Program-made: the position numbers and the translations under genes
Shown here: positions 27,562 through 52,480 of the stretch, piece by piece
How positions within the stretch are numbered: position 1 is the first letter of the stretch
Layout: each line of letters starts with the position of its first letter
Notes under the pieces: model-generated
Told to the model about the DNA's origin: nothing
What the model saw: only the letters and a program-made list of their open reading frames with translations
Databases searched by the model: none
From: Pseudisothecium myosuroides
Taxonomy: Eukaryota > Streptophyta > Bryopsida > Hypnales > Lembophyllaceae
Direction of reading: 5' to 3'
Assembly: GCA_951799445.1 (NCBI GenBank)
Contig: OX637287.1
Span: forward strand, 36,237,724-36,301,723
Length of the DNA stretch: 64,000 nucleotides

Positions 27562-30061
27562 TCACCTCCGGAGGTTGTAGTGGCTTCGTTGAAAGCAAGC
27601 ACCCGCATGCAAAAACACACCTCCACATTGTGGATAGACTAAACTTATGCGTCTTGGGCTCTTGCAGAAGCGACACTTCCAACGGCGTGCTGTCCTAACA
27701 AGGCCGTGAACTCCATGCATTGCCAACCGAAATTGAGACATAGTCCCACGTTGCAACCTCCAGGGGCGGCTCAATTCGTCTGCAAGCTCGAACTGAAACT
27801 GCAAGTGTGATACTGCATCCTTACCAAGTTGATGTGCTGCGACTTTGTTTAGAATGAAGCTGTTCACGGCAGAAGTGTCCACAAGGAAAAAAAAAGACTT
27901 TATGCCACCACTTGTGGCTCCTTGTTTGGCACGAGTAGTTGCTGCGGAGGTGGTCCGCCACATCGACTCCACGCATGAACTCTGTATAGGCTTTGTGAAT
28001 AGGAGACGTCTCCAAATCCGTCAATATCCCATCAATGTGGCATGGAACGACAGGCCACTCTTTGTTATCAGCCGAGACCGGTGGAAAACATGTTGACGAC
28101 AAACCTACTGCTTTCCGATCAACAAAGATTGCACTCGCTATCTGACCACTAGTGTGCATTCTCCAGACTAGAGTACCTTGCAGTTCCTTACTCAACGTCT
28201 TCATGTTGCGAAAGCAATTGGGCAAATCCATTCGGTTGCTACGAACCGTCCCCACGCCATAGGTTCCATGCATTCGGAGTTCCACCAACAACTTCACGGA
28301 CGTGAAGTAATTGTCCGTGCAAACTATGTGATCCAAGCTGTGCGAATCGTTCATCAGCTGAAGAACAATATCGTGTGCTGTCTTCGCGTCTTGTGCTGGT
28401 CTTGCTGCCAACGACTCTTTGCACTAGGAACCCGTATAGATTTGAAAATCGTATACGTACTTATCCCGAGCGTCTGCAATACACCATACCTTCACTCCCC
28501 AGCGCGTAGGTTTTCTGGGCATGTATTGATGGACTGGGCAGTATTTCCCTTTATATGGGACCATCGTCTCATCAATTGTCACCTCCTGGTGAAGGTGCCA
28601 GTTCCTTTTACAGCAACGCTTCAACTCGTTCACCAACCATCTCATTTTTTGAAGCCTGTCAAACTCTACATTGTCCCCTGGAATAACTGGCAAACTGTCG
28701 TCAGCGATGTGGAGGCCCCTCGTAATGTCTTCGTAGCGTCTGCAGGTCATGATTGCTGAAATATTGGGACAATAAAGAAACTCATTACTCCGACTCCAGT
28801 GGCTTCTATAGTTTGGCAACTTCTTAATTCCCATTAGCAAATTGACGGCAATGAAGGCCTTCAATTCCTGTTTGTCAAGTGGCCACCAATTGGCCCCCCC
28901 AGCCAATGCATTGGGCCGTCCAGTGACTTCACCCGCGTAGCGATTGGTATCGGCACAGATCCGTTGAAGGGTCTGGTCACTCCAGAAACAAGCAAACAGG
29001 AAAGCCTTTGAAGGCATTCTGAGGATGGAGAAGTTAGGGCCTGCTGTTGGACCTTTGAAGGGGCGACGTTGCTCCGCAAAGCTCGTCTGGTCCATGCGCC
29101 ACTTCTCATTAGTGAAGGCTTCCAGGAATGCGAGTCTGGCCACGGCAGCGGAGACCCGACCACCTCGTGGAACACGACGACGCCTTGCCGAAGGCTCTTC
29201 TGCTGACTGCTGAGTGCACCCGTTTCCCTGTCGCGGCGTCAACGCCGTCGGAGAGTCGACTAGAATGATTGCCAGCATTTGCTGGTCGTCTTGTTCATGG
29301 CGCGCGCTTGAAGAAGGACCCGCCTCTCTGATAACAACAGGAGCCCCATGCACAATGATGGACTGGCGCGGATTGCCACGCACCGGGTTTGCCGCGCCTT
29401 GCGTGGGCGCAAGAGGCGTATCGGTCGTCACTGGGAGTGCCGGTAGCTCAACAGCTTGGGCGACGACGTCCGCAAATACTTCGGGAAAGGGCCACCTTGT
29501 CGTCGCCATGGGTCCCAACAGAGATTCCTCCGACCCGTGGATTGCATTTGTCGATGCACGTTCTGCTCCGTCAGGGGCGACCTCGTCTTCCGCAAAGTGG
29601 GTCCACGACAGCCACGAGTTGTCGACATAATCCTCGCCGTCTGAGTCCTCCGATGTCAGCATCCGCATGGTCGCTGCATCAAAGCTCTCTAGGGACGGTC
29701 CACTGTCGACCGGCCTTTCTTGGGATGATGCATGGCCTCCCGATAGCCTGAAGTCGGAGTCCTCCACGATGTTTTGGAATTTGTCTTCCTCCCAGTATTG
29801 GTGTAAGAGGAGAATGTGCTCGACGTCGATGCTCCTGATATGCAACTCCTTACCACCTCCAAAACAACAACGTGAACGAGTTGTCTGCTGCCGCTCTGGA
29901 CATACGAGTGAATCACCAAGCCCAGCATCCACTCGTCGGCGTCGTGACCACCATCGGCAGCTGCAAGTGGCATGAGGACTGAGGAGCGGAAACGAACAGG
30001 CATGGGCGCTGATGCTCCTGGAGGCGTCGCCTGTGCGCATGTACTTGGCTGCACAGCCCAT
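27562..30061 (-). pseudogene. piggyBac transposase (DDE_Tnp_1_7), with one stop and one frameshift
   Basis: The long open part (30061-28427) starts with an acidic, low-complexity N-terminus. The catalytic core follows: PNYRSHWSRSNEFLYCPNIS, WHLHQEVTIDETMVPYKG (first D at 28571-28573), CTDNYFTS (second D at 28313-28315) and FMRGVDVADHL (third D at 27962-27964). The tail has the Cys-rich zinc-binding end, WKCRFCKSP to CGGVFLHAGACF. Two breaks are visible. One is an in-frame TAG at 28424-28426, where the reading frame continues on both sides (YTGS / CKESLAARP). The other is a frame change in the A/T homopolymer near 27,890-27,900. TAG is one C-to-T change from CAG. The homopolymer change could be a sequencing error. 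The first ATG of the frame is used; an upstream exon is possible. All three Asp are kept, so loss of function is recent if real. Confidence 0.85.
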
Positions 30062-31133
30062 TTCTGACCTCGCCAGCGGAGTGTAGTGGTCGTCGGAGCG
30101 CCATGCTCAGGAGTCGGCAACGTCGAGGGTCTGGTGCCATCAGCCGCTGTTGGAGAAGCGGCTGCATCTGCGGGTGTATGAGATAAGTGCCCAACAGTTG
30201 CTGACGTTTCTCCGCGCTTGGCCGCCCTGTCGCCAACAGAGCTCGTTTTTTTTTTTTTTTTTCCGCTTCCGTTCCTTGTCCACTACGAGCGCTGAGGCTG
30301 TGTCAGTGTTGTCCAGTGTCGCAGAATGACTACAGCTGTGGGTCTGAGACCTAGTTTGCGGACGCACCCGAGAAGCACTAGAAGCGTTCATTATGACTGC
30401 GACGATAGTTTCCAGGTCCGACGTTGTGGATGACAGTCGCAGCAGCTAAGCTCCAAAATCAACGTGAGGATGGCGTGATCGCAATGCAGATGCGACACAG
30501 ACGCCGCTGCTCCGACGTCGGGCTAGAGGAGGACTCGCAACGCGTGGTTGACTTCGTCAATGAAACCTCAAGGATGCCCTTCAGGTAGTCGCTCCCTCCA
30601 CCCTAGAATCCATGCACTATGATGTCTGAACAAGAATCGTAGACCTCGTGCCGTGTCCCTTCTCTTGATGCCCTTCTTTACACTCTTACGTAGTAGTTGT
30701 CGCCTATCGAGGAGACTAACGATTCGCTGTGTCTGATTGTCGGAAGCTCCTATGGACGAGCACCAATGTCTGACTGTGTCCCGGATGTATGGGAAGCTTG
30801 ACAATATCTATTCACCGCAGTGGAAGGATGCGGCCATGACAAGGGGCAATCATTCTATGAGAGTGTGTGATACTGACGTGAATGATGCAGTGAGGTCAAT
30901 CCTGTTGCACAGAGCAGTGGATACAGTCACTGACTATTGAGAGAGCATGAGCTCTGCTTTCCCTACCTACCCATCCACAAAGAAGCTCTAGAAGTCTACG
31001 TGCATGGAATTGAACAGTAGAAACTAACTATCTACAGAGTTTGTCCTTGCCTCGTGGAAATTTGTAGAAAGAAATTAACCCTGAGGGCATGCTCACATGG
31101 ATGACAACATGTGCAGACCAGGACGAATTGCTC
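30062..31133. other. piggyBac 5' internal region up to the MULE insertion
   Basis: This is probably the promoter and leader side of the transposase. It has a T run at 30247-30262. Short minus-strand frames here may be leader or unrecognised exon sequence; none shows a domain. Confidence 0.4.
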
Positions 31134-31144
31134 AGAGGAAATGG
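31134..31144 (+). repeat. Left target-site duplication of the giant MULE (AGAGGAAATGG)
   Basis: The 11-bp sequence AGAGGAAATGG sits directly outside the left terminus and recurs at 52470-52480 directly outside the right terminus. MULEs typically make 8-11 bp target duplications. Confidence 0.8.
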
Positions 31145-31625
31145 GGGAATGCTGGGGAGCGAGCGTAGAGCGGCGAGCAGGAAGCGGGGATTGGTGAGCG
31201 GGGAGCTGAAATATTAGAATGAAAACCAAAAAAGTGGCAAAAAATTGAAAGAAAAGTGGATGAAAGTTGACGGAAAAATGGATGTAATTTTAGAGAAATT
31301 CCTGAAATTCAATGGAAGAAATGGAAGAAAGTTGTTGGAAAAAATGGATGAAAGAAATTAGAGGAATAAGATGAAAATTATGGATGGAAGTGGATGAAAA
31401 ATATGGATGAAATGGATGAAAAATACGGCTTAGGGTAGTGGATGAAAAATATGGATGATAGTGGATGAAAAATACGGATGATACTGGATGAAAAATACGG
31501 ATGACAGTGGATGAAAAATATGGATGGAAGTGAATGAAAAATTTGGATGAACACTGGATGAAAAATACGGATGGAAGTGGATGAAAAATTCAAATGACTA
31601 TGGATGAAAATTTTTGGATGGATTA
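31145..31625 (+). repeat. Left terminal inverted repeat of the MULE
   Basis: The outer part (31145-31210) is G-rich with repeated GAGCG/GAGC. From about 31255 it passes into imperfect tandem units of about 22-24 bp of the form GTGGATGAAAAATACGGATGA. The right terminus carries the same two-part structure in reverse. Confidence 0.75.
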
Positions 31626-33297: not shown

Positions 33298-34930
33298 GCA
33301 GGGGGGGCTGGGCAGCCCCCCCTACCGGGCGGTTTTGGATGTCTAGTCCCTCGAATTGGGCAGGGGGGCCTGCCCAGCCCCTCAATTTGGACAGGGTGCC
33401 TACCTAGCCCCTTCAGTTGGGCAAGGGGCATTGCCCACCCCCTCGGCTTGGGCAAGGGATCTGCCTAGTCTGTCGAGTCGGGTAGGGGGGGCTGTCAAAC
33501 CCCTCTCATCGGCTAGGGGGGCTGCCGAACCCCTCGAGTCCACCGGGGGGGTCTGCAGAACCCCTTCAGTTGGACGGGGGGGGGGGGCTGCAGAACCCCT
33601 TCAGTCGGATGGAAGGGGCCGTAGAACCCCTCGAGTCGAACGAGGGGATTGCTGAATCCCTGAAGTCCGATGGGAGGGGGGGCTGCAGAACCCCTCAAGT
33701 CCGACGGGAGGGGGGATGCAGAACCCCTCGAGTCCGACTCGAGGGCTGCAAAACTCCTAGGTCGAACGAGGGGGATTGCTGAACCCCTGGAGTCCGACGT
33801 GAGGGGGGACTGCAAAACCCTTCGAGTCGGACAGAGGGGGCTGTTGAACCCCTTCAGTCAGACGGGGGGGCTGCTGAACCCCTCGAGTCCGACACGGGGG
33901 CCGCAGAACCCCTCGAGTTGAACAAGGGGGATTGTTGAACCCCTTGAGTCCGACGAGAGGGGGGGCTGCACAACCCCTCGAGTCCGACGGGAGGGGGGAC
34001 AACAGCACCTCTCGAGTTGGACGGGGGGGCTGCTGAACCCCTTGAGTCAGAAGGGGGTGCTACAGAACCCCACGAGTCGGGAAGGAGGGCTGCTGAACCC
34101 CTCGAGTCACGCAAGGGGGGCTGCAGAATTCCTCGAGTCGCACGGGTGGGCTACTGAACCCCTCGAGGTGGACAAGGGGCGCTGCTAAACCCCTCGAGGC
34201 GGGCAGGAGAGCGGTCCAACCCCTCTGGTTGGGCAAGGGATTGCCAACCCCTCTAGTTAGACAGGGGAGCTGCCAATCCCCTCGAGGGTAGCAGGGAGCG
34301 TTGGGCAGCCCCTAGAGTTCGGCGGGGGAAAACCCCTCGATTTGCGGAAGGGGTGCTAGGCAGCCCTTTGAGGACGACAAGAGGGGTTGCCTAGCCCCTC
34401 GAGTTGGACCTCGTGGAGGGCTGCCGAATCCGTCACAGTGGATTAGACTGGTCGGGCAGCCAAACCCTTATAGCTGGGCATGCTGGCGACCTGCCCATTC
34501 CGTGGAGTTTGGCTGGGGGGCTGCCCAACTCCTTGAGCTCGGCTGGGTCGGAAGTTCAAGGTCCCCTTATCGAGCTGAGCTAGGTGACCCTAGGGCCCAG
34601 CCCCTCAAGGGAGAGAGGATTGACGGGCTGGGCAAGGAGGCCGGACTGCCAACTTGTCCAGTCGGGTTGGGCAGGCCAGGGTTGACAGGCTGGCAGCCCT
34701 AGCGGTTCAGGTGGATAGGAAGGTGTCTATGAGATGCCACCCTCTACAGTTCAGCTGCGCAGAGCATGGAAGCCAGGCTACTAGCCCTCCAGTTAGGGTG
34801 GGCAGGGCAGGGCAGGAAGGCCTGCCTGCCGAGCTTCTCGAGCAGAGCAGGCCACCTTAGCTGCCCAGCCCCTCGAGCAGGGAGGCCAGCTTAGCTGCCT
34901 AGCCCTTTGAGCTAGGTAAGGCAAGCAGGC
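33298..34930 (+). repeat. GC-rich minisatellite, unit about 30-36 bp
   Basis: Roughly thirty units of the form GGGGGGCTGC-GAACCCCTCGAGTC-GAC run from about 33.3 to 34.4 kb, and decay to about 34.9 kb. Each unit has a G run on the plus strand, a C run (ACCCC) and usually the palindrome CTCGAG. Units can fold on themselves, and the G runs could form quadruplexes. The long frames here, on both strands, follow from the repeat and are not genes. Confidence 0.85.
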
Positions 34931-35733
34931 CGGGCTGCAAACGCCCGTAAGGTACACAGGGTAGGGAGGCAAACTTCAGCTGCCCCTGCAGGTTGTGAGG
35001 GCAGGGCAGCCCTTGAAGTTTGGTTAGGGAAGGCAACCCCGGAAGTTGAATTCGGGTGGGTTAGGGTAGGTTAGGGTGGGTTAGGGCGGGTAAGGGTGGG
35101 TTAAAGCGGTTTAGGGTAGCGTGGGTAGGGTTGCGTCCGGCAGGGCAGTTTGGAGGTACTACCAGCCCCTCCAATTGGGTTGGGCAGGGCACGAAAACCA
35201 AGCTCTCCAGCCCCTACAATTTGGCTAAGTACGACAGGGTAGGGAGGCCAGCGTGCCCAGACCTTACAGTTGTGGGAGAAGGACCCCGACCAATCCATTA
35301 GGCATGGCATGCTAGGGTTTAAGTTTCATTGGTTTAACCTTTTAAAATTTGTGATGACGTGAAAACATAACATACTGAAGTCTGCAAGATTTGCATTTGC
35401 GACTGACGACATTTAGGAAACAGTTGTCTTGTAGGTTCAGGATTTAGGGTTTTAGGATTAAGCATGCATGCCAAATATAGATATGGGGCTAAGAGCATAT
35501 TGATTCCGAGAATAACATCAAACACAAAAATAATAGAAAATGAAGATCCTGAAATGGGAGTTCATGCACGGCATCCATGCACAGAAGTGGATACGAGAAA
35601 GTCACATAGACTGGGCTGAGGTCGAACTACCCTCACTATCTGATGACTGCGGGTCGGACTCTACGACACAATCATCTATGAACTGCAGAGCACGAGGATC
35701 TACCGAGTAGGCCCTAGAACTGGGTCTCGGATT
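34931..35733. other. Decayed minisatellite, telomere-like tract and 3' flank
   Basis: This holds scattered GCAGGGCAGG/CAGCCC remnants and a (T)TAGGG-rich tract at about 35045-35135. The 3' flank of the ParB-methyltransferase-like gene follows. No gene was seen. Confidence 0.5.
35045..35135 (+). repeat. Degenerate telomere-like repeats (TTAGGG/GGGTTAGGGTAGG)
   Basis: About a dozen imperfect GGGTTAGGGTGGG-type units. It looks like a local product of the neighbouring G-rich satellite, but resembles interstitial telomere sequence. Confidence 0.5.
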
Positions 35734-38700
35734 CTAAGTTACAAAATCCCTCGAAATTGCCTCAGCATACACGGGTAGCTGAAATGGTTTCGGAGGGCTA
35801 CAAAAGAAACCTGGATTGGCATAAAAAGGCACTTGGTGTGAGAATCTCAGTTCCTTGGCTTTCCTACAAACACCAAGAAACAAGACATTAGAATATAAGA
35901 AAAAAAGGTCCATCGCAGCCAAAAAAACAAGTAGATTAAAGTGAAACTTACTTACTAAATCTGGAGGTCTTCTTCACAGGCTGCGCAGGAACATCTTCTT
36001 CTTCCGAGTCGAGAAGCTCCACCTCTGCTCGTGGTGGTGGGCGAACGACCGCAGTAGTGCGCATGCTTGGAGCAATAAGGGCATCGAAGATATCATTGTT
36101 CTCCTCAAATGCTAGTAGATGACGACGCGTGGCGCGGCAAGCTTGAATGGTGGAACCTGCGATCATGTCGAGAAAATATTAGAACACTCCATCCAAAAAA
36201 GAGCTTCATGGCATAGTACTCGAGATCTGCAAGTAACTATGAATCAAAATTACCAGTAGCCGCTGTGCAGTCCACAACGACGTCTCCTGGTTCCGTCAAC
36301 CCCTCCACTAGCATCTGCATAAATTGTCTGGCCTTCTCCCGAGGGCCTTGCCAAGGCACGTTACCATTCATGGAGAGTTCTTCTTTGAAGCAGAGGTTGG
36401 TAAGGATGTCATCCTTGCCCACGGCAACACCAACTGCGTGATGGGATGGAACAAATTGGAATGGAAAATCCATGGGAGTCTTGGGGCCACAGTCCTTGAC
36501 CAACAAAGAGATGGAGAAGCGCTTAGTCTGCAGAATAACGGAAGTTAGAATCCTCTGCATGAAATAAATTTGTTGATATTGAACAAAGAAGATGCTAGAG
36601 TAGTGTGTACCGTTTTTGTTGGATCTACTGCTGATGTGAGATGTAGATGATTGTTGCCAAAGTACGTATCGAGTATGCGAAAATGATATTCCTCAAGTAG
36701 GCCCTTAATCTTGCTCCGATGATCCTTGGAAAGGCTAGGGTATATCAGTAGTAACCCGCCTTTGTCATGGAGGTATTGATCAGCAAGGTCAAACACGCCT
36801 AGAAGACACTCTGACTGCAACTCATTCCACTTGGGAATGGGTGCAGGCGGTGCGGAAATGGTTGGCATGTGGAGGCCTTCTGGAATGTCGACGATGATCA
36901 AGTCGACAGCGGATTGCGTGCTCCTAATACCGCCGAAGAAGCGTTCCTTGTCACTAGAATGCTGCCAAGGACACGCAGAAGAGATAATATTAGAATTTTA
37001 TGAAATCTAAGGTCCATGTGAAATTCCGAACATGTGACGTACTTAGGAATCACGATTAGAAAGAGAATCACCGAAAGACAATGCAATAAACCCCGTAGTG
37101 AACTAACCATGGCCAAGAAGGCATCGACCTTCTCATGGTCCTTCGCATGATCTGCGAGACTGCTCAAGGAGAAGTTCAGTATACACTCGTCAACGTCCGC
37201 AACGGGGTTGATGTTTGGAGCAGTCGGAGTTAGGCCGTGCACCAATCTCTCTTGAGTAAGTGAAAAGCCAGAAGATGTATCCTTCATGTCGGCGGCGGCG
37301 CTCGTAGCAGGTTCCTCTAATGGTGTCTCGGCCTTTCGCTTCATTCCCTTGTTTCTGGCCTTCTCCGCCCCTTTCTCCGCCTTTGCCACCATCTTCTTCT
37401 GCTTGGATTCTTCGTTCTTCTTCTTAGCCTCCTCCAACTTCTCCGTCTTTTTCTTGTCTGCCACATCTCGTTTGGCGACTGCCTTCGCTTTAGCCTCGAG
37501 ATCCAAGCCTGTGAATTCATCAAACTCCGACTCCACGCCTGCAGCCTCCTTCAATCTCGCAAAGAGCTCCTCCTCTTCAGGAGGAGTGGTGCCCATGTTG
37601 CACTCCAGGTACCAAGGGCACGCCTGTAGATGGGGAGAGGGCCACTTCTGCAGCTGCGTCGCAGAAAACATGCACTCGTCCAAAGATTTGTCTAACCAAG
37701 TGGTCAAGAAAGGCGGTAAATCCGTCTTCTGAATCGCCTTTTTTGCATATAACTCGAGCTTGAAATACCTGGAGAAGACAGATATAAGAAATAGCTATAA
37801 AACATTTGAAGATTTCTGACAACAAAGTAATGATGCATAAGAAGACCTCACTGAAGACCCCTTTCGATACCGTGAGACGATTGAAGCTCCTTACCACGTG
37901 GCCATGTATGTCCTACTTATCCCAATTAAAAAAACAGAGTCACCAAAGTTAAATGCATGTCGTTCAAGATATCGCAGAACATCAAAACCCTTGCAGGGCC
38001 TCTGCAAAACGACGGCCTCCACCCTTGTCAAATAAGGATGTGCGGGACCGAATTGGAATAACCTGTACTCAATTGAATGACCTTGTCAAACTACCCTTGT
38101 CATTAGCTGCCTAATGAAGTACCAGAAGAAGCAGTTAGGCTGCCTAATGCTTGTACAACATGATTTAGAAAACAAAGTACCTAGACGGGAACTTGTGACT
38201 ATAATACCTGTAGATCAGTCGCTTCACTGCGAGAGTAGCTCCTCTGAAGTCTTTAAAAGTGTCTGACTTCTTAAATGAGTCCAATCCCTTGATTAGGCTA
38301 GTATAGGCCAAGTCCCACAACTTCATTCTCCAATCCTCAAGATAGTCCTGCAACGTTTGCGGCTCGGTCGGAACATCCATATTGATGGGGATGTTGTCAG
38401 CCTTGCAGACGGCATCAAAGAGTGCCACAGCTGACTCCTCCAGCTGCAAAGGAAACAGAATTATGGTTTCAGTGTAACAATGTGTGCGAGGAGGTTAAGA
38501 TACATGAACACAGAAGAAATGAAACTGAAATTGGTCAATAACGCTGGAGTCCTCACCCCAGCATACCAACAAGCCTTTCCAAGAAACAGCATCAACTTGT
38601 CCTCGTTCACAGGACGAGGTGGGAATTTCCGAGCCTCTCTTGTTGGGGCAGATGCGTTCATCCACTTCAGCCACTTCACTTTGTGTGCTGCAGGGGCGTT

Positions 38701-41485
38701 TGCAGATGATATCATCTGCAACTTCTCTAGGGTTAATTCCGGTACTACATTTAAAGTGTAGTGCCTCTCGATCTGCATTGACCGCACAGGAAGCACTTAT
38801 TAGACACAGTACATTGGGTTCTGAACACAATGGACCAACCATGTGGTGCAAACTAGATATTTACCTCCTGCAAAAACTCAGGGCCAAATGTCGATGTCGC
38901 CACGGAAACAATTTTGGACAGCTTCTGTCGGTTGGAGGCTTTCGCCTCTTTGATGGACTTCCTCATAGCAGCTGCAACTCCATCAGGTGTGACGTCCTCT
39001 TCAGGAGTATCCTCATGATACTTACGAACAGCAAGGTCAGCCGTCGCCGAGATCTCTTGCTGCTCCACATCAAAAATGAGTATTACTTGAGAAGACTTCC
39101 AAAAGCAATGTCATTCTGAAATCACTCGCACTGAAGACACAGAATGGTTTGAAACATACCTTGAAAATAAATGATGTAAACACGTCGAGAGGCATGGAGT
39201 ACCAGGACGGTCGGCTGTACTGCTTGCATGTCTGGAATTCCTCGGGCGTCAAGAGCTCATGAAATTTCTCGACGTCCATGACCCCATACTTCTGCACACA
39301 GTACAGTGTATGCACCAGGTTTCTCTTGACGTGAGAATTCTCTGTTTGCCTACAGAGACCAAAAATTCATTGTGTCAAATACCATAAGATAGTGTACTCC
39401 CGCACACTGAATAATAATAAAATTGAAGGAACAGAATTTGGAATAGTGGAAGGTACTTACTGGTTAATATCGTGCATAGCTTGCATGGCGGTGCTAATTT
39501 GACTCCTCGTATCTAGGACAATCGTGTCCATAGCATAGTGCCAATTAATATCCGCGGGGTGCATTCGCTGGATATGGTTCATCCATGCGATTCGGCGGTG
39601 ATTGCCGTCACAGACAAAGAACTTCTGGTCCACTAAATACTTCAAGGCAGTGTGAGAAAGAAGATGGGCATTGAACTTTTCGTTCACTTGGTTCCACAGA
39701 GGTCCCCATTCTTTCTTCTCTGAGGCCGAGAACACTCCAGTCTGACCGGATTCATCAGCAATGGACACGTAGAACACTCTTGCTCCCTCCTCGTACCCAT
39801 ATGCGAACTGGTTCTCCAGCTGCACAAGGTCACACTGTAGTGTTGGCCGGACCATTGGCATAGGAACCATTCGGCATAACGGAATACGCATTCTGGAGAG
39901 ATCGGATGAGGTAAGCTTCAGGCTTGCAATAGTTGATACAGTGTCCAGCTTCTGAGTCTTCCTAATATCGTCCTCCATCATGTCCCGACCAATTCCAGGG
40001 AGGCCATCATCTTCCAAGTCGTGCACCTCTGCGAACTCAACCGGAGGTATTGGCACATCATCCACCACAGTGGGAACAGGCGACTTCGTAGGAGAGCCCA
40101 CTTGACTCTCACTCTGCGTTTCCTAGACATGGGATGCACAACAATAACCATTTCACGAGAGTGAGGACCATGTCAATTGAGAATGGTATATGCATACAAG
40201 GAAGTGACATCAGGCATTAGATTGATCTTGCGAAATGAAATTATAAACCATACGATACCAAATATCCAACCTTCTTCACTCTGTAACATAGGGCAACCTC
40301 AAAGCCCGCAAGTGCATCTCTGTGTGATGGGCATGTAATTCCCGCAACAAAATATGAGAATGTCATCATCGGAAAGAATGCGGGATGTCACATCTACAGC
40401 TCCTTGCTCACAGGTGCAATAATCTACGTTATATCCAGGAGAGGAGTTAAGCTCCTCTAGATGATTTTCTCCGACAGAAGTGCACGTAGAGTGTGTACGG
40501 GATATGCTTTCACATTCCCGTATCGTCACACGGGTCGAGGGAAACTCTTGCTGACATCCATGTTGCCTTACCGGAGGAATCTCCATGACAGCGGACTGGG
40601 TCAGCTGTGGGCGTTCCACATCATCTGCAGCACATTGATTCTTCTGAACATCCACTAGCGGCTGTAGAGAAACCAAATAACCAAAAAAACCATCAGAAAT
40701 CCACGCAGAAGCATATGTTACAATTAAAATGAAACCCAGAAAAATATAAAGTGATAGAAAGGACAATAAAGCCTCTCCCGAGGAGAATACGGTGAATTCC
40801 AAGATGACCCCTCTCGAGACCCGGCATGAACAACATGAAATCACACCACCAGCAAATCAAATGGGGAGCGGGAATAGATCCCAACCCCGACCGAATCAAA
40901 CCTTCATGCTGCCGGCCCTCCGAGATGACCCCTCTCGGTGCCGAGAGGCCACCCCGGGGGTCCTGGTCACCGCCATCAAGCTGAACAGCGAGTCCCTCTG
41001 GGCACTGGGCCGCTCTTTTTTTTTCAAACAAATTTTTTTAAAATGTGAACACCAGGCCTGACCTCTCTGGACGTGAAACACGAGAACGCACACCAGAATA
41101 AAAAAAATGGGGAGGGTGACCAAATCCCCCCCCGACTGAATTCGACCAAGATCATACTGGCCCTCCAAGATGACCCCTCTCGGTGCCGAGAGGCCACCCT
41201 GGGGGTCCTGGTCACCGCCATCAAGCTGAACATCGAGTCCCTCTTGGCGTTGGGCCGCTCTTTTTTTTTCAAACAAATTTTTTTTAAATGTGAACACCAG
41301 GTTTGATCTCTCTGGACTCGAACAACGAGAACCTAATTGGCATCCAAAAATCCCGCTCACTTTAGCGAAAATGAAATCTAATGGGAGCCTCATACCTCGT
41401 TATGAACCTCCTTGTCTTTGCTTGAAGGCGCGCTAGCACCTCTTGCTCCTTGCTGCGCCTTCTTCGATCTCGTAGCCGGCTTCAT
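35734..41485 (-). CDS. ParB-like / DNA-methyltransferase-like fusion protein of the MULE
   Basis: Exons from the 5' end: 41485-41396, 40661 to about 40271 (unclear 3' end), 40122-39461, 39349-39160, 39062-38865, 38772-38557, 38443-38181, 37999-37895, 37768-37108, 36961-36611, 36554-36254, 36156-35952 and 35863-35734. Every junction outside exon 2 is GT-AG and keeps phase; total about 1,240 residues. Exon 3 holds a ParB/Srx-like domain: GARVFYVSIADESGQTG, then WGPLWNQVNEKF, then KFFVCDGNHRRIAW (the DGNHR box). Exon 9 is a Lys/Glu coiled coil. Exons 10-12 form a methyltransferase-like domain: DLIIVDIPEG (motif IV position), then GGLLLIYPS, then VEGLTEPGDVVVDCTAATGG and RATRRHLLAFEEN (SAM-binding motif I plus the following acidic residue). 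Motif IV before motif I is the beta-class order of N6/N4 DNA methylases. The catalytic DPPY reads DIPE, so activity is doubtful; binding DNA or SAM is inferred. Exon 2 has a frame break near 40,305-40,330, either a mutation or a missed intron. Confidence 0.7.
40830..41325. repeat. 245-bp tandem duplication in intron 1 of the ParB-methylase-like gene
   Basis: Two units share GATGACCCCTCTCGGTGCCG, the next block AGAGGCCACCC-GGGGGTCC, then TGGTCACCGCCATCAAGCTG, and end in GGCCGCTCTTTTTTTTTCAA. The repeated palindrome CCTCTCGGTGCCGAGAGG is at 40931-40948 and 41176-41193, exactly 245 bp apart. Confidence 0.8.
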
Positions 41486-43211
41486 GATTCCGCCTGCTAG
41501 GATGCAAACTCGAAGTTTTCCGATGGAACTTAATATGCTGGAGAACATGAAGTGCTTTCTCACTTGACTGAAATTACTATTGCGAAGCAACCAAAAGTAT
41601 GAGGAAGAGGTGGGTGGACGGGCCGTACCTTCCGATGGCGTCGACAAGTTCTCAAGAGGCTCCGAGAACGATCCCCGCACGAATACGATTTAGGGTTTGA
41701 GGATGCGGCGGGAGAGTTCTGCGAGGTCTTGCGACCTGACCAGCCGGTCACTCGAGGTGGGCGCCCGGTTGCTTGATTGATTTTTGAGGGTCTTGAAGGC
41801 AGTCTGGAAGCCTTGTTTTGGAGAAGCCCTGGAATGTGGAACCTCATATTTTATTTGATAAAATGGTTAAATTGATTTTCTGTATTGGATACCGGACGGC
41901 TTGCATTTGGATTGACGACTTCTTCTACTCGGGGTTGTATACAATTGCCTTTCTAGATTGGACAGCTTTGATGCAAACCATTTGAATCAGGTGATGAGAG
42001 GTATGGAAATCTATGTATATATTTCTCTTATTGTACCATCATGCTACTGAGACTGGACTAATGCATTACGAGAATTCAATGTAGTGTGATGTTATAATAT
42101 AATAGACCCAATTTCTATGGTGTCATACTTGAAGGAACTCTAATGCATAACAAAATTTATGAATTTGCTTGTCCTGTTGTGGTTGTGGCCGTACGGCTAT
42201 ATATTTCCAGTACAATTTCCTGCACGTCATTTTTATCTATCCCGCCCTTAATCCTAATTAGTTTCCTACATTTTCTCCTAGTTCTTCAGAAATATACTCG
42301 TCTAAACTCCATGTCATAGATCTTACACGATGCATTTTCATTGAATGTCAGATAATATTCATATTCATTTTCCGTTCACGAAGAAACCCGTGTGAGAGTC
42401 ATGTACTCAATCTCTGGAATTGTGGGTTAATCTTCATTATTCTGCAATATTAAGATTCCATACATAACTTATTTGTAATAGTACATTTCTGTTTCAATGT
42501 AGACGTCTTCCCCTTCAAACCTAGAGGAGCATATGTAATCAGTATTTACCACTGACATATTCATTATTAGTGACCCCCTCAAGTGGTAGATGCTTCTATA
42601 TATGTGGATTCTTCTTTATGGCGCATAATGAAAATCATAATCATGAATGTACTTTGTCGAAGACCGTTCATGACCAATTTCATAAATATGGCGCTTGTCG
42701 CAATGTGAATTTTTGGTTTTTTGTAAGTTATCTAAATATTGGAACGGAAACCGTGATCTGGGATCCGGATTCAAGCAGGGGGTAATTGATAACCGGAAAT
42801 TAACTACGGAACGGAATAGGTGACAATCCGGATTTGATCTGAATCTAAACCGGATTAGAGTTGGAGCGGATCTAAGTTGGAACAGATTGGGTCAAGAACG
42901 GATTTGGTCATGATGACAGATCAGACTATATATAGACTGACCAATCCAGTTGCCACTCTTTTTCAAATTTCTTTTGCGGAAATCTCGCTCCAGCTTGTAC
43001 TTAGCTTCTCTTCCCAGCGCTTTGCTTTCTTGTTTTGTGAGTTGGTTTGTGTGTGCGTGTTAGTGTGTTAGAGCGCGCAGCGCTTTAGCGTGTGTTGCAG
43101 GTTTAGAGGTATTCCGGTTTAGGGTTTTAGAGCGAAGGTGAGAAACGGGACGTGCGGCTAGGAGAGGGAAAGGTAGCCTCAGTGAGAATCCGGTTAGAAC
43201 AGCTCGTGTCC
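41486..43211. other. Intergenic region of the MULE between divergent genes
   Basis: The upstream regions of the ParB-methylase-like gene (minus) and the gag-like gene (plus) lie head to head here. A TATA-like box is at 42927-42934. CCGGA-rich sequence begins at about 42,730. No further gene was seen. Confidence 0.45.
42927..42934 (+). promoter_or_regulatory. TATA-like box (TATATATA) before the gag-like gene
   Basis: ACTATATATAGACTG lies 285 bp upstream of the first ATG (43212), in a spacing that allows a leader of about 250 nt. Confidence 0.5.
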
Positions 43212-44980
43212 ATGCCTCAGCTCCGCAAGAGTAGAGCAGGGCCGTCTAGTTCCTCCGCAGCAGAAGTGAAACTCCGGAAGGTGTGTCCGGTCATTCCAAC
43301 AGACGAGAAGGAGGAGGACAACCTGATAGAGGATCTGGCCAAGATGGGCTGCGGAGGACTGATTGATAAACCCTGGGGGTTTAGGGAGGAGCAGATGATC
43401 CGAGAGTTGTTGGGCAGACTCTCGAATCAATTCGACAAAACCATCCGCGGAAGTCCGGGCAGTTGGACGGAGAAGATGTGGAAGGCTGTGTCCGAATTCC
43501 GGTCAGGAGGTCGAGGGATGGCCTCCTCGAAGGAAGGATACACTCGGGGGAAGTTCCGGTGCAACGTGGACTCCAAGGACGGGCATGCGGTCGCGGATTG
43601 TCTGGACGACCGGCATCGGAACCTCCTACAGTTCCTGGTTCCGATTATCCACCCGGATAAGCCGACGAGGGTGACCATCGCCATCGGAAACTTGATTTTC
43701 GGAGCCCTGAGCGGGGAACGAAAAGTAGACTGGGCCAGGATTTTATTCGACCTGGTCAACCGTCTGATTCCGAAGACGGAGGAAGTAGACCGACTCCGTT
43801 GAATCCCTACCTCGTCCATCTGTACAAACACAATCAACTCCTCACGGATACGGAGGAGAAGGAGTGGAAGATGCAGGAGTCGCTCCTGAAGTATGGGGAA
43901 TCGGAAGAAGAAGAAGAAGAACAGGAAGAAGTATCCGGTTCCGAGGAGGAAGAAGAAGAAGAGGAGGAGCAACTCTGGCCGCAGCACAAGCGGCAGAAGA
44001 CGACGCCTCCTCACCGGAGAGGAACCCCAATCCCTCCGGGTGAGACCTCCAACCTTGGGAAGAAACCGGTTTCTGAAGAACCGGGTCCTTCCGGATCGGA
44101 TCCGACGGATCCATTCAACCAGCTGATCAACATCCTGAGCAATGTGCGAGCAGACTGGACAATGAAGAAGCTGGTTCTGAACCAGATCAGCGAGCTGGTG
44201 GGAGCACCAGCAGACAGCAACCTGGCGGGAGTGGTTGCAAATTTCATCTCCAGCCCGGATGAGATCCGGAAGCAAGAAGCGGAGATACGACGACTCCAAG
44301 AGGAGAACGAGTCGTTGAAGACAGAAATGTTGCTCCTCAAGGAGGACATGGCTACCACCCGGGAGATGGCAGAAGCTACCCGGAAAGTAGCGGAGGACGT
44401 GAAGGCCACATTCGGAGCAACCGGAGAGGCCGTCACCAAGTCAAAGCTGTTTGACGAGGGAGTCCTCAAGGAGCAGAAAATATCCGGGACCAGGTTGGTC
44501 CGGATTTTGACGGACTACTCCGAGAAGGTGGAGTTAGTCATGATGGAAGCACGAGAGGCTGCAAACCAGATGGAGGAGAGCAGCAGGAAGCTGAACGGAG
44601 TGACGTTGTCACGGTCATTCCATCTGTCCGACCTTTCGATGCCCGGGTCTTTTCCGAACGTAGGCATTCCAACGGAAGGAAAGGATCGGACTCCCCAGTC
44701 AAAGAAGAGTGGGAGGAAGCTCGCGCACACCATCAACTTGGATTTGTCACCGGATCTCCCAGAATGTGAAACAGGGGAGCGGAACCGGAACTTGACGGAC
44801 GTCTTCGAGCAGCTTGGAACGGACCCACCCAGAAGTCCTACACTGAACCCGGGGAAAGATCAAAGTATGGATCTGACCCCAGATCAGGGTGAGGATCAAG
44901 ATCAGAGCGTACACCAAGGCGAAGACGAAGTCATGGACGAAGGAACGGATCAAGGAATAGATCCGATTATGATAGGATAG
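43212..44980 (+). CDS. gag-like coiled-coil protein, read in two frames
   Basis: Part 1 (43212-43802) begins MPQLRKSRAGPSSSS and has a compact domain with IRELLGRLSNQFDK and DKPTRVTIAIGNLIFGALSG. Part 2 (open from about 43772 to 44980, in the -1 frame) continues that domain with PLNPYLVHLYKHNQLLTDTE. It then has a long run of Glu, a Pro/Arg-rich link and a coiled coil (RKQEAEIRRLQEENESLKTE). The tail is acidic, with repeated DQ. The natural continuation VNRLIPK to PLNPYLVHLY lies across the frame change near 43772-43799. A base loss or gain is the simplest reading; no classic slippery heptamer is visible. It resembles gag-like or plant-mobile-type proteins of plant retroelements, but no protease, reverse transcriptase or integrase follows. 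Codon use is dominated by CCGGA/CGGA words, unlike its neighbours. Function is not known. Confidence 0.55.
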
Positions 44981-46914
44981 GTAGGATTAGTTTTGTAAAT
45001 ATTTGTTAGTTAGGACCGGACCGGATTTGATCCGGATGTGTCTGGTCTGGATCGGATGTTTTCCGGTCTGGCCGGCTCGGCGGGGACCGAAAGTTCCGCG
45101 CGGACTTTTCGGGCCGCTTTGTGTTGACTTTTTGAGTTTTAAAATGTATATAGTCAGTCTCTGCGAAGGAGACTGGGAGTCTTTTCCCTTGAGTTTTTTG
45201 TGCATTTTCTATTGATTTCTTGTTGTACGTCTCTCCCCCGTGTGGCAGAGTTGTTTTGGTGAGGAGTTAGGAAGATGTGTGCAGATTCTAGAGAGATTTC
45301 TCCCCTTGGTGTGTTTGTTTTGCTCTTATGTGCATGTGAGTGGGTAGTCTAAGTGTTGGGAGCGGATTTCAGTTCCTCAGCACCTCTTCAGTTCACGATT
45401 CCGGGCGAGAAAGCCGTTGTTAGGCTAGGCGGATAGGGAAAGAGTCCTTAGTCGCGCTAGAACTCCTGGATAGGAAATCCGGTTGAGTGCCCGATCTCCC
45501 GTGAGGTCTCGCTGTCCTAGTTGGTAAACGGAAGAACTTTAGTTGATGTTGAAACGGACGGGTTCGCTTGTAACCACCTAACTTTGCGCGGAGGGAACTT
45601 GGCATCAAGGTCGTTGTAGTATGAAAAGATCGTACGGGGGGTCTTTGTGTGACCTACCAACTGGATCGCTGTACGGGTGGCTGTGAGAGATCAAACCGGA
45701 TCCGCGCTAGTGTAGGAAGTAGTGGATTAGAGAAGTGGGTCTTCAGCCACTATAAGTCACGGAAGGAGTGGCGGGCCTGCCACTCTCAAAAGCAAGTGGC
45801 GAACCCTCTGATGGTGAAACAGAGGCAAAACTAAACCGGAGTGGAGTGATAGTACGTGTGAGAGGACCGGATCGGATCGGTCCAAAGAAGTTCCAGGATC
45901 AGAAGTTGTAGGATTCTGGGTGGTGGAAGTTTTACAGGACCGAATAGCTTGACAGGCCGGAAGAAATAGAGAGAGGTCTGGTCGTTGTTTTCGGTGTGTT
46001 GTTGTTTCCGGTTTTAGATCTAGGACCGGAAAGTAGAAATTGGATACTGGCTGAGCTTAAGTTGGGAATAGAGCTAGACACTTCACAGAATCTCGTGGGT
46101 TCGATCTTTAGAGTCATTTTGTTATGCTTTAGAGTGGTTTTTGGGAGTATAACAGGGAATTCACTTACTCTGTGCTGCGACAGCGCTATATTGATATTTT
46201 CGATATTTCAGCAGTTCTGAGCGCTTAGTCTAAACTGTTTCTATTCTTCAAATCTATACCTGCAGTAGTAGTTACAAATCTACAACTATCCTAGATATTA
46301 AAATTCTAGGCCAATCCTAGATTCTTCAGCCTGCACGGTTCGATAATTTTGTAGATCCCACATTGTTGATAGTTACTAAGTATGTAAATGTACACTTGTC
46401 CTTTACGTCACAGGCTTATAACCCAAACCGAAAGTAAAAATGGCGGATTTCATTTTCCATTCCCTCGAAATTTAAAATGAGGTTTGATGTAATGCAGTAA
46501 ATTGGAGTCTCTTATTGCTTCCAAAGCCATCTTTGTCAGGTCCGCAATTCATTAGCTTGTACATTATAGAATGACAGCTAGGACCAATAAAGATCTGACT
46601 TCAGGAATATTGTCTGAACTGTCATTTTAAAATTGTCGTCAACCTCATTTCTAGAATTTGTCCTTTCTTATTGGTCTTCACACTCGACTTCATGATTTCA
46701 AATTATCTCTTCTAGGGCATACTTATTGTGATTTTCATGAAGTTCAACGGCCGCAATGTATCATGCTCCACTTCCACCCCCACTCAGGCATTCTCTTCAC
46801 CAGCAGACCCATAATCCAGTTGCTTAGGTCGACGTCCTTTATCATTCTCGTCTTCACATTGATCGGCTGTTTTCATATGCACGATTTAGGGTCTCCAATT
46901 AGTGATCATTAGCG
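44981..46914. other. Downstream region of the gag-like gene, no gene seen
   Basis: CCGGA-type words continue in clearly non-coding DNA to about 46,030, so the bias is regional rather than codon-driven. I looked for long terminal repeats that would mark 42.7-46.1 kb as a nested retroelement and found no convincing pair. Confidence 0.45.
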
Positions 46915-49900
46915 ATGGTGGACTTCAAGGATATGATAGTGGTCAGTGCATTCGGGGATGAGGTTCCAATCATTTTTCCCGCAGGTCAAGATGGAGTTGC
47001 GGTCGTCCTAGCATGTAGATTGAGCTTAAGGTTTAATTTGAAAGTAGAGTCAATTCATCTCGATGAAGATATATATGACGCCAACACTGGTATCATCACT
47101 CACAGCGTAGGACAAGTTCTTGCTTCTGTCTCTGAGGATCGGTACTGGCATTTGAAACCTGGAAGATTTAAAGCGTATGGAGCACTCGAAACCATTCGTT
47201 CCATTTCGTTTGATGAGGTCACACCCCATCGATCCTCCTCATTGTCCTTTCAAACCCCTCTCTTTGCTGGTGTAAAGAGTGAGCCCTTTCCGGAACTTGT
47301 CACCGTTCTCAGTGATGATTCCGATGTTGATCCTCCTCTTGACGACAGGAACGTGGACACTCCTTTACAGTCAAAATTAGTAAGCCCTATTTCACTGACC
47401 CCTGGAGAGACCAACAAGAAATCTAAAATTGCGGTGTCCGGAGTATCTGTAATAGACTGTTTGAGGGGACTGCGTAACTTGAAGGGATGTAGAAATGTGT
47501 TGTCAAAACTAGATTACGATACAATTCCCATCGAGATTGTCCAGGCATTGCCTTCGAAGTTCAATGGGAATCTTATATTCGAGTTGCCTGCACTTGAGTC
47601 TTATTCTACTCAATCCGAAGCAAAAAACATGGTTGGTATGGATAGGCAGTGTGACGGTCACGTCTGGTCTAAGATGGTAACCACAAATATCTGCAACCCC
47701 ATGGGGTTGTCATTCCGCACCGCTTTCTGTCTAGGTCATCTTCGATGCGTAAACTCCTCGTGTGAGTTCCTCAATCGCGTCCATCGAACTAATCCCTTGA
47801 ATGAAATGGAATGGGAAGGGCTATCACCTACTCCACTCGTTGTTGGTGAAGTCCATCCTCCAGGGTCATCTCTTGTTTGTAAAATTTGCAAGCATCCTCC
47901 CTCGTGTATTGCCAGGTGTAGTGTCAAGGTCTATTACGTTATTGGAAATGAGTCATGCACTCGTGCTTTTGTACATCTAGGTACTCACGATCATCCGGTA
48001 AAAGATGGGGAACTCCGCGACATGAAGGAGAGAACTTGGACCCTGATCGGAGAACAGATGGAGAGAACACCGACTGGAACTAACTCATCAATAGTCATGG
48101 AGGCTACGAAGGAACTGTTGGGCGAGCTTATTTTACATCCGGATGGTGGGCAGACAAAGACTCTAGACTTGGAGGACCTTATCCCGGTGCTAGACAAATG
48201 CAAATACTTCAGCTCCCCGAGTATTCAAAACGAGGTGACATCATTCAAGTATTTCAGGAGATTTGGTGTGATTGACAGCATTACCAAGTTGAGGGGGTCA
48301 AGCACATGGGCATTTGTTCAGGAGAGTAAATTTCCAGGTCAAGGAACAGATGTGGACAAAGTTTTCGTTTTTAAAATGTCAGAAGTAGGACCTGGAAGTG
48401 GAGTGGACCTCGTGAAGCGAATGCAGAGTGGAGGTGACCTTCAGGATGCTTGGCTCATGTTCGATCATGTCAAACGCGTCAAGGGGTGGACAACCATGGC
48501 ATGTCATGTGTATGACTCCGTGTATTGTCGTGTAATGACCATCGCCGTTTGTGACATGCAATCCGAAGACGGAGATGCTCAAATTCTGTTCTGGAAGAAT
48601 CTTAATTCTGTTCTTCAACGCCACGGGGTAGGCGAGCCGCAATTCAAGGGATTCATGGCAGATAGTGCACAAGCAAATTGGAATGCTGTGCGAAAGGTCT
48701 ACGGATCTGGGGATAGTAACGTTCCGATGGAAGACCGTGAAAGAACGTGCCTCTTCCATTGGACACAGTCCATGGAAAAACATACCAAGGCAGACATTCG
48801 TGCAGACTTACAAGATCAACATTGTCTCCTCTGTAAGCAGTATAAGAACGCCTCTACTTCTGAAGAATCCGAGACTCGTTACTTGGCCATAAAAGCATGG
48901 TGGATATCATCAGGGGCAACCACGGAATTGGGACTGCACCGACTTGAGCTGTGGCTTTCTTTCTGGCATTTTTGGTATCGTCAGTGGGGTGGATTCATGC
49001 AACTTGTAAGTCTTCATTCTACCTGCTTGTCATTTTTCTCAATGCATAGTTTTGGTACCTAAACTTGTTTTCGGCGGTCCTTATTACCTTTCTACTTCTA
49101 TAACTACGATTGGTAATCCTCTCCATGCTAGCTGGTCGTAATACATTCATTTGGCTGCCATGGGGTTCTCTGCTGAACACGTCCTTCGGACTTCTTATAT
49201 ATCATTTGGAATACTCCATAGAGATTTCTTGAGCAACATACGGCCTATGAATGTTGCATGTCTTCGACACGTTGGAGACCCCTCTCGGTACCGAGAGGGG
49301 TCTCAAGAGGGATTGACTCTTGCGCATTTCTCGTGTATTTGGTGGACAACTGTGGACTGCTGTTGCTGAGAATATAGAAGTGATGCATGCTATTTGTACC
49401 TCAAAGGGTCCTCTATGTACCTAGGGGAGTCCTAGTCTGGTCTACCTCTTTAAATTTCCTCATTATGCATTCAACTATTTTGGTATGCAATACTGAAATA
49501 GTTGACTGATTCACGCTGGAGGTACCTCTTGGGTCCTCTCGGTCCCAGGTGAAGGTGCTTGTATACGTTCTCTTTTTAGACATACATTTCTTTTTTGGAA
49601 GTATACTCTAAATCCTAAGAATATCTTCTGAGTAAATGTGTTTAGGCTGCAAAATGATTGTGGTGTATGGATTATTTTCCTTTCAGGATCTCAGCGAGGC
49701 AGAGCTAGCAGAAATGCCATCGTGTAACCTTGCAGAGACAGTGCACAACAAGTGGCTCCAACAATCTGGAAATCGGGGGAACGACCTGTACATTGCCACG
49801 GTAGACGATTTCGTCAGAGCGTTCATGCAGATGGTAAGGTATTACCAATATCTGAAGGGAAATGACCCTGGTACGGGACCAGGAAAAGAAGAGCTAATGT

Positions 49901-51156
49901 TGCGCGTGGCCCAGCGTTCAGCAGAACGGACAGGTAATCCGAAGCCGCTTACAGAAGCTATTTCAAATATTCCTAGTGTAGAAGAATTCTTCAATAGAGA
50001 GCCTCATCTTGAAGGTGAAGAAGTGTTTGGATCACAGAAGAGGAAGGCAGACATGCCACTTGGATGCGAATACGACTCGCATAGACCAGACAAAGTGAAT
50101 TTTTCTCATCCACGAATCCAAACACGGTTGTGGAGAGCCACAACCAGTGCATCGAATTTAAACACAATTCTGGAGGACGTTTCTCAAGGTGTGGACATTG
50201 ACCTTCCACTGCCAACGTCATATGATGACATTGGAGGGCAAAGTAGTTTTCCGAATTCGACTCATGTGTCAGCTATTCAAGAGAGCAATTGCGACGAGGG
50301 GCATTGGCACATAGCACGTTTACCAAAAACATCTGCAAAAGCATGTTTTGCATTGCAGGCAATTACAAAGAAGAAGTGCACAGCACAAATAGTCCTGAAC
50401 AACGTTGCTATTGCTGCGCCAACGTATACTGGTATGATGGTTAATTACAGGAAAAATCAAAATGACCGTATGCAGTTTTTCTTCTGCAACGACGATATTG
50501 AAAGATGTATTAAAGGTACTTGACGAAAGTGGGTGTTATCAGTACCACCTGTTCCTGCAATTTGGCCAGTGAAGATGGGAACCAAACTGTCGAAGGCCGA
50601 GATTCTGGCATTAGAAGGGGCAGGTTTTGAACTTCCGCAACGTCAAGTCATTTCGCCCAGGAGACTGTTCGGTGGAGAAGCTGGAATACAAATTGTGCGC
50701 GCGTATCCTGTTCTGTCTTTACCAGATGAACATCCCACAACTCGAACAGGAAAGGTTGTCCGTCGCAACCCGAAGGCCCCAACTGTGAAGCACCAGAATA
50801 ATTGTGCATCGGCCCTAACTTTGAATGCACGCATTGAAAGGATGACGATGGTTCCCCACCCTGGATTTGGTTGCATAGTGTCACTCATCTCTGGTGTTCA
50901 GCCTCGCCATGAGAAATACATGCTCACTATATCCTCGTTTCCGGACTGCACTTGTCCGTATTTCAAGGAGATGAAACTGAAGTGCTTGGGCAAGAGAGGA
51001 ACGTGGGCAAACTGTAAGCATCTTTATTTTATTTTCAACGTTATCTGCAATCTACAATCCACATCGGAGGCCTTCATTCACGCGGCAAGTTTCAGTTTCA
51101 ATGAAGTGAAGCAAGTGCTTCTTAGCGGGGTACTGAATCATTTGGAATCAAACTAA
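46915..51156 (+). pseudogene. MULE-type transposase with SWIM zinc finger, one in-frame stop
   Basis: There are two exons, 46915-49005 and 49687-51156, joined CTT|GTAAGT ... TTTCAG|GAT in phase 0; about 1,185 residues. A zinc-binding block with CLGHLRCVNSSC and CKICKHPPSC lies at about residues 274-340. The DDE core follows: WLMFDHVKRVKGWTTMACHV (D at about 517), IAVCDMQSEDGDAQILFW, FKGFMADSAQANWNAVR (D at about 583) and CLFHW. A third acidic residue, the E of SEESETRY (about 650), is a candidate. The C-terminus has the SWIM motif C-T-C ... C-K-H (50946-51020) that is common in MULE transposases. The frame is broken once, by TGA at 50521-50523 between CIKGT and RKWVLSVPPVP. The next codons continue the same protein in the same frame, and no intron of workable size is available. 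A CGA-to-TGA change would explain it. This is the likely mobilising enzyme of the 21-kb element, functional only if the stop is recent, suppressed or an error. Confidence 0.82.
49275..49304. repeat. Perfect 30-bp palindrome in the transposase intron
   Basis: GAGACCCCTCTCGGT followed by its exact reverse complement ACCGAGAGGGGTCTC. The core CCTCTCGG-CCGAGAGG also occurs at 40931-40948 and 41176-41193 in the same element. Confidence 0.9.
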
Positions 51157-52469: not shown

Positions 52470-52480
52470 AGAGGAAATGG
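52470..52480 (+). repeat. Right target-site duplication of the giant MULE (AGAGGAAATGG)
   Basis: Identical to 31134-31144 over all 11 bases and directly adjacent to the right terminus. Confidence 0.8.

Follow-up and report, generated by a model that had tools for sequence, protein, structure and literature searches.

Giant DNA transposons that encode a ParB-like protein with a DNA methylase domain are known from algae. According to the accessible text on the Ectocarpus element Sola1-1_Ec32, a 21.5-kb transposon, a 1,104-amino-acid protein with ParB-like and N4/N6-methylase domains is encoded opposite the transposase; similar proteins are reported there from green and red algal transposons, and their role is offered as a proposal only (PMC12477816). 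The locus analysed here lies in a 64,000-nucleotide stretch of the Pseudisothecium myosuroides genome (Bryopsida; contig OX637287.1, positions 36,237,724 to 36,301,723, forward strand), henceforth the window, in whose coordinates all features are given. It is a mobile element of 21,326 bp that carries, head-to-head with a transposase-like gene, an intron-rich gene for a predicted protein with a ParB/Srx-fold domain and a beta-class methylase-like domain, which we call the ParB-methylase gene.

This element and Sola1-1_Ec32 are alike in the length of the protein (1,099 versus 1,104 amino acids) and of the transposon (21.3 versus 21.5 kb), in the placement of the gene opposite the transposase and in the presence of both domain types, the comparison being one of architecture and not of protein sequence. 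They differ in that the algal element has a Sola1 transposase, whereas the present one has a Pfam-unclassified transposase, 10-bp target-site duplications and a green-plant host; palindrome arrays are described here, while the accessible text on the algal element mentions none. What characterises the algal type, a ParB-like plus N4/N6-methylase-like gene opposite the transposase of a giant DNA transposon, is found at this locus. Iyer et al. 2011 and Petroll et al. 2025 (references 50 and 51 of the Ectocarpus paper) reportedly treat the algal cases; beyond that paper and these two works, our literature search, mostly of titles and abstracts, named no plant or algal transposon with a ParB-methylase. 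The first-pass annotation of this DNA had known of no description of such a gene, a statement overtaken by the like architecture already reported for the Ectocarpus element (PMC12477816). ParB-methylase transposon genes are thus already known as a kind, and the present case would be a plant counterpart of the algal accessory genes. As far as seen, it adds the host lineage, an element with 10-bp duplications, an altered catalytic motif and operator arrays.

VANC of the VANDAL elements offers a second comparison. The accessible parts of the source papers state that VANC binds motifs arrayed in VANDAL DNA that is non-coding, the introns of VANC and VANB among it (PMC5735166), and that these arrays change fast (PMC5735166, PMC10398659). 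As far as those parts go, the present locus shares with VANDAL an accessory gene beside the transposase, fast-changing tandem arrays in the gene's own intron and class-specific motifs. The likeness is one of layout, with other protein parts, and anti-silencing, which is shown for VANC, would be a conjecture here. We know of no ParB or methylase domain in VANC. The analogy, already drawn in the first-pass annotation, is now stronger because the tandem array in the first intron is variable and palindrome-bearing. Phage and bacterial fusions such as Bce_0392 (accessible text of PMC5512222) also combine a ParB domain with a DNA methylase in a single protein; the present protein differs from them in the roughly 500 residues that separate its domains, in the 11 introns of its gene and in its altered catalytic motif. 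Charophyte and dinoflagellate retrotransposons with captured C5-cytosine methyltransferases, as described in the available portion of PMC5890265, are likewise eukaryotic elements with a DNA methylase, but both the methylase and the element class are different.

The ParB-methylase gene was modelled as a chain of 12 exons in a single frame on the minus strand, from the start codon at 41485 to 35734, with a predicted spliced product of 1,099 amino acids. Each of the 11 introns has GT-AG ends, and the splice phases are consistent, as had been proposed for a chain of eleven exons, one fewer than are now counted. Exon 1 (41396–41485) comes from the gene model, as does exon 2 (40572–40661), both splice sites of which are kept in the copies C8, C2, C1b, C3 and C4. 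Exon 3 (39461–40122) holds the ParB/Srx-like domain (about 39461–39900), with the DGNHRR box within 39583–39609, on the evidence of the model, homologues and the predicted structure. Exons 4 (39160–39349), 5 (38865–39059), 6 (38557–38772), 7 (38208–38443) and 8 (37108–37768), the last including a charged linker, were placed by the gene model together with a relative and the copies. The N-terminal half of the methylase-like domain is encoded by exon 9 (36611–36961; model and homologues), with DIPEG at the motif IV position; exon 10 (36254–36527) has DCTAATG at the motif I position, interrupted by intron 10, and exon 11 (35952–36156) has the domain end with RRHLLAFEEN, both according to the model and PF01555. 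Exon 12 with the stop codon (35734–35863) was assigned from the model and copies. The motifs quoted in the first-pass annotation are all present on the minus strand: DGNHRRIAW at residue 232 of the product (window 39609–39583), DLIIVDIPEG at 800, GDVVVDCTAATG at 978 and RRHLLAFEEN at 999. They fall in exons 3, 9, 10 and 11, so that exon 3 had been numbered correctly and each of the other three sits one number lower than first assigned. The association of these motifs is more than chance, because PF01555 matches across a splice junction, exons 3 and 9 are linked genome-wide and a diverged relative is co-linear. A single intron-rich gene that unites a predicted ParB/Srx-fold domain and a beta-class methylase-like domain is supported.

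Structure prediction gives the exon-3 domain an alpha+beta fold as in ParB-N and Srx, in line with the ParB/Srx-like domain first suspected there. Among solved structures the nearest are those of ParB proteins that bind CTP rather than of nucleases, and the methylase of phage Vincenzo is among the fold matches. The DGNHRR box is of the G-x-x-R type, which we take to be the ParB/Srx nucleotide pocket; over 121 sequences N174 and H175 are invariant, and D172, G173 and R176 are kept in at least 90%. ParB-related DndB was matched by 2 of the 121 exon-3 members (best E 0.032). A protein search with the exon-3 open reading frame (ORF) returned 501 relatives in public records, and identity is at most 72% among the 120 listed. 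We take exon 3 to encode a predicted ParB-type DNA-clamp domain. Matches of exon 3 to KMP11 (PDB E 0.022; Pfam, 6/121 members), to DUF1015 (8/121 members, best 0.002) and to other profiles were judged to be chance, as was the NCBIfam RecJ match (E 7e-4), which scored 18 bits where the cut-off is 550.

The methyltransferase-like domain proposed earlier is borne out by PF01555, whose match spans the exon 10/11 splice. With the whole protein the match has E 5.2e-5 and 23.7 bits, below the curated cut-off, and with the domain piece E 3.4e-6 and 27.6–27.7 bits, above the curated cut-off of 26.7. PF01555 was matched by all four members examined (the window and relatives 86, 53 and 36% identical), a PHROG methylase family matched with E 5.7e-9, and a profile of the four members found DpnA (E 1e-4) and CcrM (E 0.0088) in the PDB. 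These matches are mainly C-terminal, PF01555 covering only the C-terminal 56 positions, and for the exon-9 half the assignment comes from position and motif. Motif IV, likewise placed by position, precedes motif I (DIPEG in exon 9, DCTAATG in exons 10/11), which is the beta-class order first described. In its canonical forms motif IV is (D/N/S)PP(Y/F/W) and motif I is DPFxGSG. Here motif I is DCxAxxG, and motif IV stands in the context VDxPEGLHxPTxSAPPAPIPxWN. A protein search with the spliced methylase found five relatives, of which P0121–P0124 have DVPEG or DIPEG at the motif IV position and P0125 has DVLEG; P0123, from another record, runs on from exon 9 across the intron into the first part of exon 10 at the corresponding position. 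SAM (S-adenosylmethionine) binding by the domain is plausible. The full-length protein search found no relative among 7,992 candidates scored, and viral contigs searched with the ParB part and with the methylase part held no relative of either; a phage tblastn search gave distant methylases only, of which the one with the best coverage spans 86% of the query at 25% identity (E 0.07). The contigs of P0006, an exon-3 relative, and P0122, a methylase relative, are both 4,168 long and may be a single contig with both gene halves.

The host genome (388 Mb in 222 contigs) was searched for further copies, with 150 of 404 exon-3 candidates scored and listed (at least 150 matches) and 150 of 288 exon-9 candidates. 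Of the 150 listed exon-3 places, 110 are followed downstream, on their own strand, by an exon-9 match (median distance 2,849 bp); none of the 150 has its nearest match within 15 kb in another arrangement, and 40 have no exon-9 match listed. In 200 shuffles the linkage averaged 0.7 places, with a maximum of 3. Exons 3–11 are co-linear in a relative whose exon 3 has about 38% identity, and the stretches that align contain some stops. Closer copies were compared at 6 of the 7 other places with exon-3 identity of at least 94% (the partial C3:2962463 being omitted), together with part of the 83% copy C11. Splice sites are mostly kept; as mapped, departures occur in C10 (exon-2 donor, not GT), in C3 (exon-10 acceptor), in C4 (exon-5 donor) and in C11 (exon-9 donor, exon-11 acceptor). 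In-frame stops are absent from C8, C2 and the C11 part and present in C1b, C3, C10 and C4. The ratio of nonsynonymous to synonymous substitution (dN/dS) against the window has point values of 0.406, 0.314, 0.246, 0.307 and 0.381 in the five complete copies, 0.389 for the C4 part and 0.228 for exons 7–11 of C11; over exons 9–11 it is 0.18–0.29 in five comparisons and 0.68 for C3. These ratios indicate a gene under constraint.

The element occupies 31144–52469, with both ends common to five other complete copies, so the gene does lie inside a transposon as first suggested. It is flanked by exact 10-bp repeats, the target-site duplications AGAGGAAATG at 31134–31143 (left) and 52470–52479 (right), and bounded by imperfect terminal inverted repeats at 31144–31208 and 52405–52469 (45 identities in a 65 × 65 base alignment of the two ends). 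Inside these lie subterminal minisatellites, detected by Tandem Repeats Finder (TRF), at 31204–31620, with the 23-bp unit GATGAAAAATA, and at 51700–52290; the right array is inverted relative to the left (repeat match, E 5.6e-31). A G+C-rich array of about 30-bp units at 33401–34300 (TRF and site count) has three TCGnnnnCGA sites, and a telomere-like short array of the GGGTTAGGG type lies at 35054–35117. The six complete copies measure 18.4 to 26.3 kb, the seventh (C4) not being covered to its ends; 10-bp duplications are exact and of differing sequence in 4 of the 6, have one mismatch in another and are missing in the last. The likely transposase gene runs on the plus strand, head-to-head with the ParB-methylase gene, as a first long ORF of 718 amino acids (46906–49062) and two further ORFs (49636–51156), where a SWIM-like stretch (E 0.41) is a faint candidate for the SWIM zinc finger (PF04434) that follows the transposase core in Mutator-like elements. 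A transposase match lies within 30 kb at 52 of the 150 exon-3 places (random mean 3.7, maximum 9), a lower bound given that 144 of 624 transposase candidates were listed. The orientation is head-to-head in 48 of these 52, including all 8 places with exon-3 identity of at least 90%. The element moves as a unit that carries the ParB-methylase and transposase-like genes.

The first-pass annotation had called the element a MULE (Mutator-like element). Its 10-bp duplication fits, falling in the MULE range of 8–11 bp (PMC6446971), but the transposase has no convincing Pfam match, and its core piece matches no Pfam family at all. We do not file the element as a MULE, because the MULE domain PF10551 finds 41 places in the genome (57 candidates) and none at its transposase; membership is unproven. 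A later nested insertion at 42696–46182, outside the element proper, is absent from C8, C2, C1b, C10 and C3, all five of which align on both sides of it, and its ORF at 43131–44980 was accordingly dropped as an element gene. The insertion, of about 3.5 kb with a charged ORF, appears by eye to have inverted GCGCTTGTCGCA/TGCGACAGCGC-like ends.

Divergence of the two genes is unequal. Where exon 3 is 37–41% identical to the window, the linked transposase is 80–87% identical in 21 of 23 places (75% and 62% in the other two); where exon 3 is 45–47% identical, the transposase is 63–64% identical in 8 of 9 linked places and 76% in the other. This mismatch, read from sequence comparison, suggests either exchange of the accessory gene between elements or much faster evolution in one line.

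Intron 1 of the ParB-methylase gene contains a satellite with 245-bp spacing (40910–41332), of two units in the window and of more in several of the other copies, as repeat analysis and the copies indicate. Its units carry the palindrome CCTCTCGGTGCCGAGAGG or a near form; in the window, pattern search places CCTCTCGGTGCCGAGAGG at 40931–40948 and 41176–41193, and we regard it as a candidate operator. The same kind of search found the core again within a perfect palindrome of 30 bp at 49275–49304, in the gap between the transposase ORFs, a presumed intron. With up to two mismatches, CCTCTCGGTGCCGAGAGG sites number 9 in C8, 7 in C2, 37 in C1b, 6 in C10, 7 in C3 and 53 in C4, counts that take in the whole fetched stretch and also sites beyond the satellite. 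The 30-bp palindrome is identical in 3 of 5 other copies and one base off in the other 2; it was not found in the C4 stretch, which stops short of the region. Exact sites number three in the window, where 0.08 would be expected when as many as three mismatches are permitted, and 342 in the genome, against none for the reversed pattern. On contig C1, which was listed completely, the 35 sites fall at 7 places, 4 of which, with 32 of the sites, have an exon-3 or transposase match no more than 15 kb away; on contig C2 one of the sites listed adjoins a transposase.

Arrays upstream of exon 3 in other classes vary in unit and palindrome. L036 has 18 units of 149 bp with CTCTCGccacCGAGAG, by eye partly like the window's satellite; L034 has 8 units of 79 bp with CCTCGTtgACGAGG, one unit being changed in both arms to CCTCATtgATGAGG; L035 has 3 units of 46 bp and no clear palindrome. 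The transposase gap was also compared in 10 further cases, taken from other copies and classes. In L046 it holds a 28-bp palindrome that shares the core, and L044 has a pair of shorter ones; that of L042 measures 34 bp and is built on the core TCGGATCCGA, and that of L041 is imperfect. A palindrome of this kind is missing in the other six (L037–L040, L043 and L045). The core TCGnnnnCGA occurs 13 times in the window against 6.7 expected, a number reached in 2 of 100 shuffles; the core was picked after the data had been seen and is a lead only.

We propose that the ParB-methylase protein probably binds palindromes repeated in the element's own DNA; that it thereby keeps the element active is a reading to which we give slightly better than even chances. 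The gene stands head-to-head with the transposase-like gene and travels with it, and CCTCTCGGnnCCGAGAGG or near forms occur in the intron-1 satellite units and in the gap after the transposase's first ORF. The ParB-like domain, perhaps a clamp driven by a nucleoside triphosphate (NTP), would load at these palindromes and spread or accumulate like ParB at parS. It would then oppose host silencing or tune the transcription of both genes, like VANC acting from VANDAL tandem arrays. Least certain is the methylase-like domain, which, with its SAM pocket seemingly kept and its catalytic motif altered, may sense or modify the bound DNA. A more specific version, which we hold only tentatively, is that the transposon has made the clamp of bacterial chromosome segregation into a means of coating itself: the clamp loads at parS-like palindromes with a TCGnnnnCGA core, spreads and shields the element from silencing, protein and operator co-diverging in each class; just as tentatively, the palindromes would then be an array amplified in tandem in the gene's own intron, plus one perfect copy next to the first ORF of the transposase.

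Several results count against binding through a ParB domain at these palindromes. Of the two profiles that the first-pass annotation proposed as a check, the ParB one (Pfam PF02195) was matched by none of the 121 exon-3 members; the PHROG ParB-like match reached only E 0.31, a profile search of the PDB with exon 3 found no ParB, and Foldseek with the predicted structure gave a best E of 0.0095 and nothing at 0.001. The AlphaFold2 model of the exon-9 methylase half was uninformative, with a predicted local distance difference test (pLDDT) value of 46, and was left out of the fold search, and motif IV is non-canonical (DIPEG, NIPED, DVPEG or DIPDG) in the four spliced members. Three single sites on contig C1 lie away from listed exon-3 and transposase matches; at C2 8817548–8827304 at least 20 sites with mixed spacing have no listed match within 15 kb. 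The class-C array has no clear palindrome, and the palindrome is missing in four class-B gaps and in 2 of 3 A2 transposase gaps. In a rather doubtful alternative the palindromes serve the transposase or an RNA hairpin, or are passive satellite, and are not bound by the ParB-methylase protein. In its favour, one palindrome sits in the transposase transcription unit, satellites often hold palindromes and sites also occur away from listed exon-3 matches. The gap palindrome and the satellite unit, however, share only about 22 bp by eye, and class B, with transposases 84–86% identical to that of the window, lacks the gap palindrome in 4 of 4 cases and has a different palindrome in its array. The class-B point is weak, because the class-B gaps gave no alignment with the window's gap.

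Of the roles first suggested, that the protein binds, marks or protects element DNA, marking is doubtful because motif IV is replaced by a DxPEG-type motif. We consider unlikely an active methylase that, with the ParB-like domain only aiming it, places N4-methylcytosine or N6-methyladenine on the element and so marks it for its own transposase or hides it from the host. This reading draws on the PF01555 and phage-methylase matches, on the low dN/dS of exons 9–11 outside copy C3, and on the proposal of the Ectocarpus authors, in the accessible text, that the protein binds and modifies its own DNA (PMC12477816). It is opposed by the lack of an aromatic residue at motif IV in all aligned members and by a motif I of the form DCxAxxG instead of DPFxGSG. 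The kept DGNHRR box would also suit an NTP-regulated nuclease that aids transposition or replication-coupled copy gain, and the Bacillus cereus ParB-adenine methylase fusion Bce_0392 nicks DNA non-specifically according to the accessible text of PMC5512222. We consider a nicking accessory quite improbable, since the solved structures most like the domain belong to ParB proteins that bind CTP and not to nucleases, though fold matches do not prove activity, and since the repeated palindromes suggest specific binding. Transposons do capture genes, and stops occur in C1b, C3, C10 and C4, but a passenger with no role for the element is the least credible account and very improbable: it is disfavoured because the gene is constrained, with co-linear exons kept in a very diverged relative, exons 3 and 9 linked at 110 of 150 listed places and dN/dS below 1 in every whole-gene comparison.

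Outside the element, a piggyBac-type transposase (PF13843; E 1.2e-38 and 3.9e-22) is encoded by two ORFs on the minus strand at 27821–30106, about 1 kb from the element's left end. A chlorophyllase gene (PF07224; E 5e-58 and 6.7e-20) lies on the minus strand at 59209–60650 and a DUF679 gene is also in the window; both fit a green plant. Direct repeats at 17903–19652 and 23724–25549, 78–90% identical and about 5.9 kb apart, are perhaps a local duplication. Rfam and tRNA scans of the window gave no matches.

The candidate operator, with 342 exact genomic sites and arrays ranging from 2 to about 50 units among near-identical elements, provides one experimental handle on this system. Another is the class whose ParB part is about 40% identical while the linked transposase is 80–87% identical in 21 of 23 places. 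Together they make the choice between a ParB clamp and an N4-methylcytosine or N6-methyladenine mark on a eukaryotic element's own DNA directly testable.

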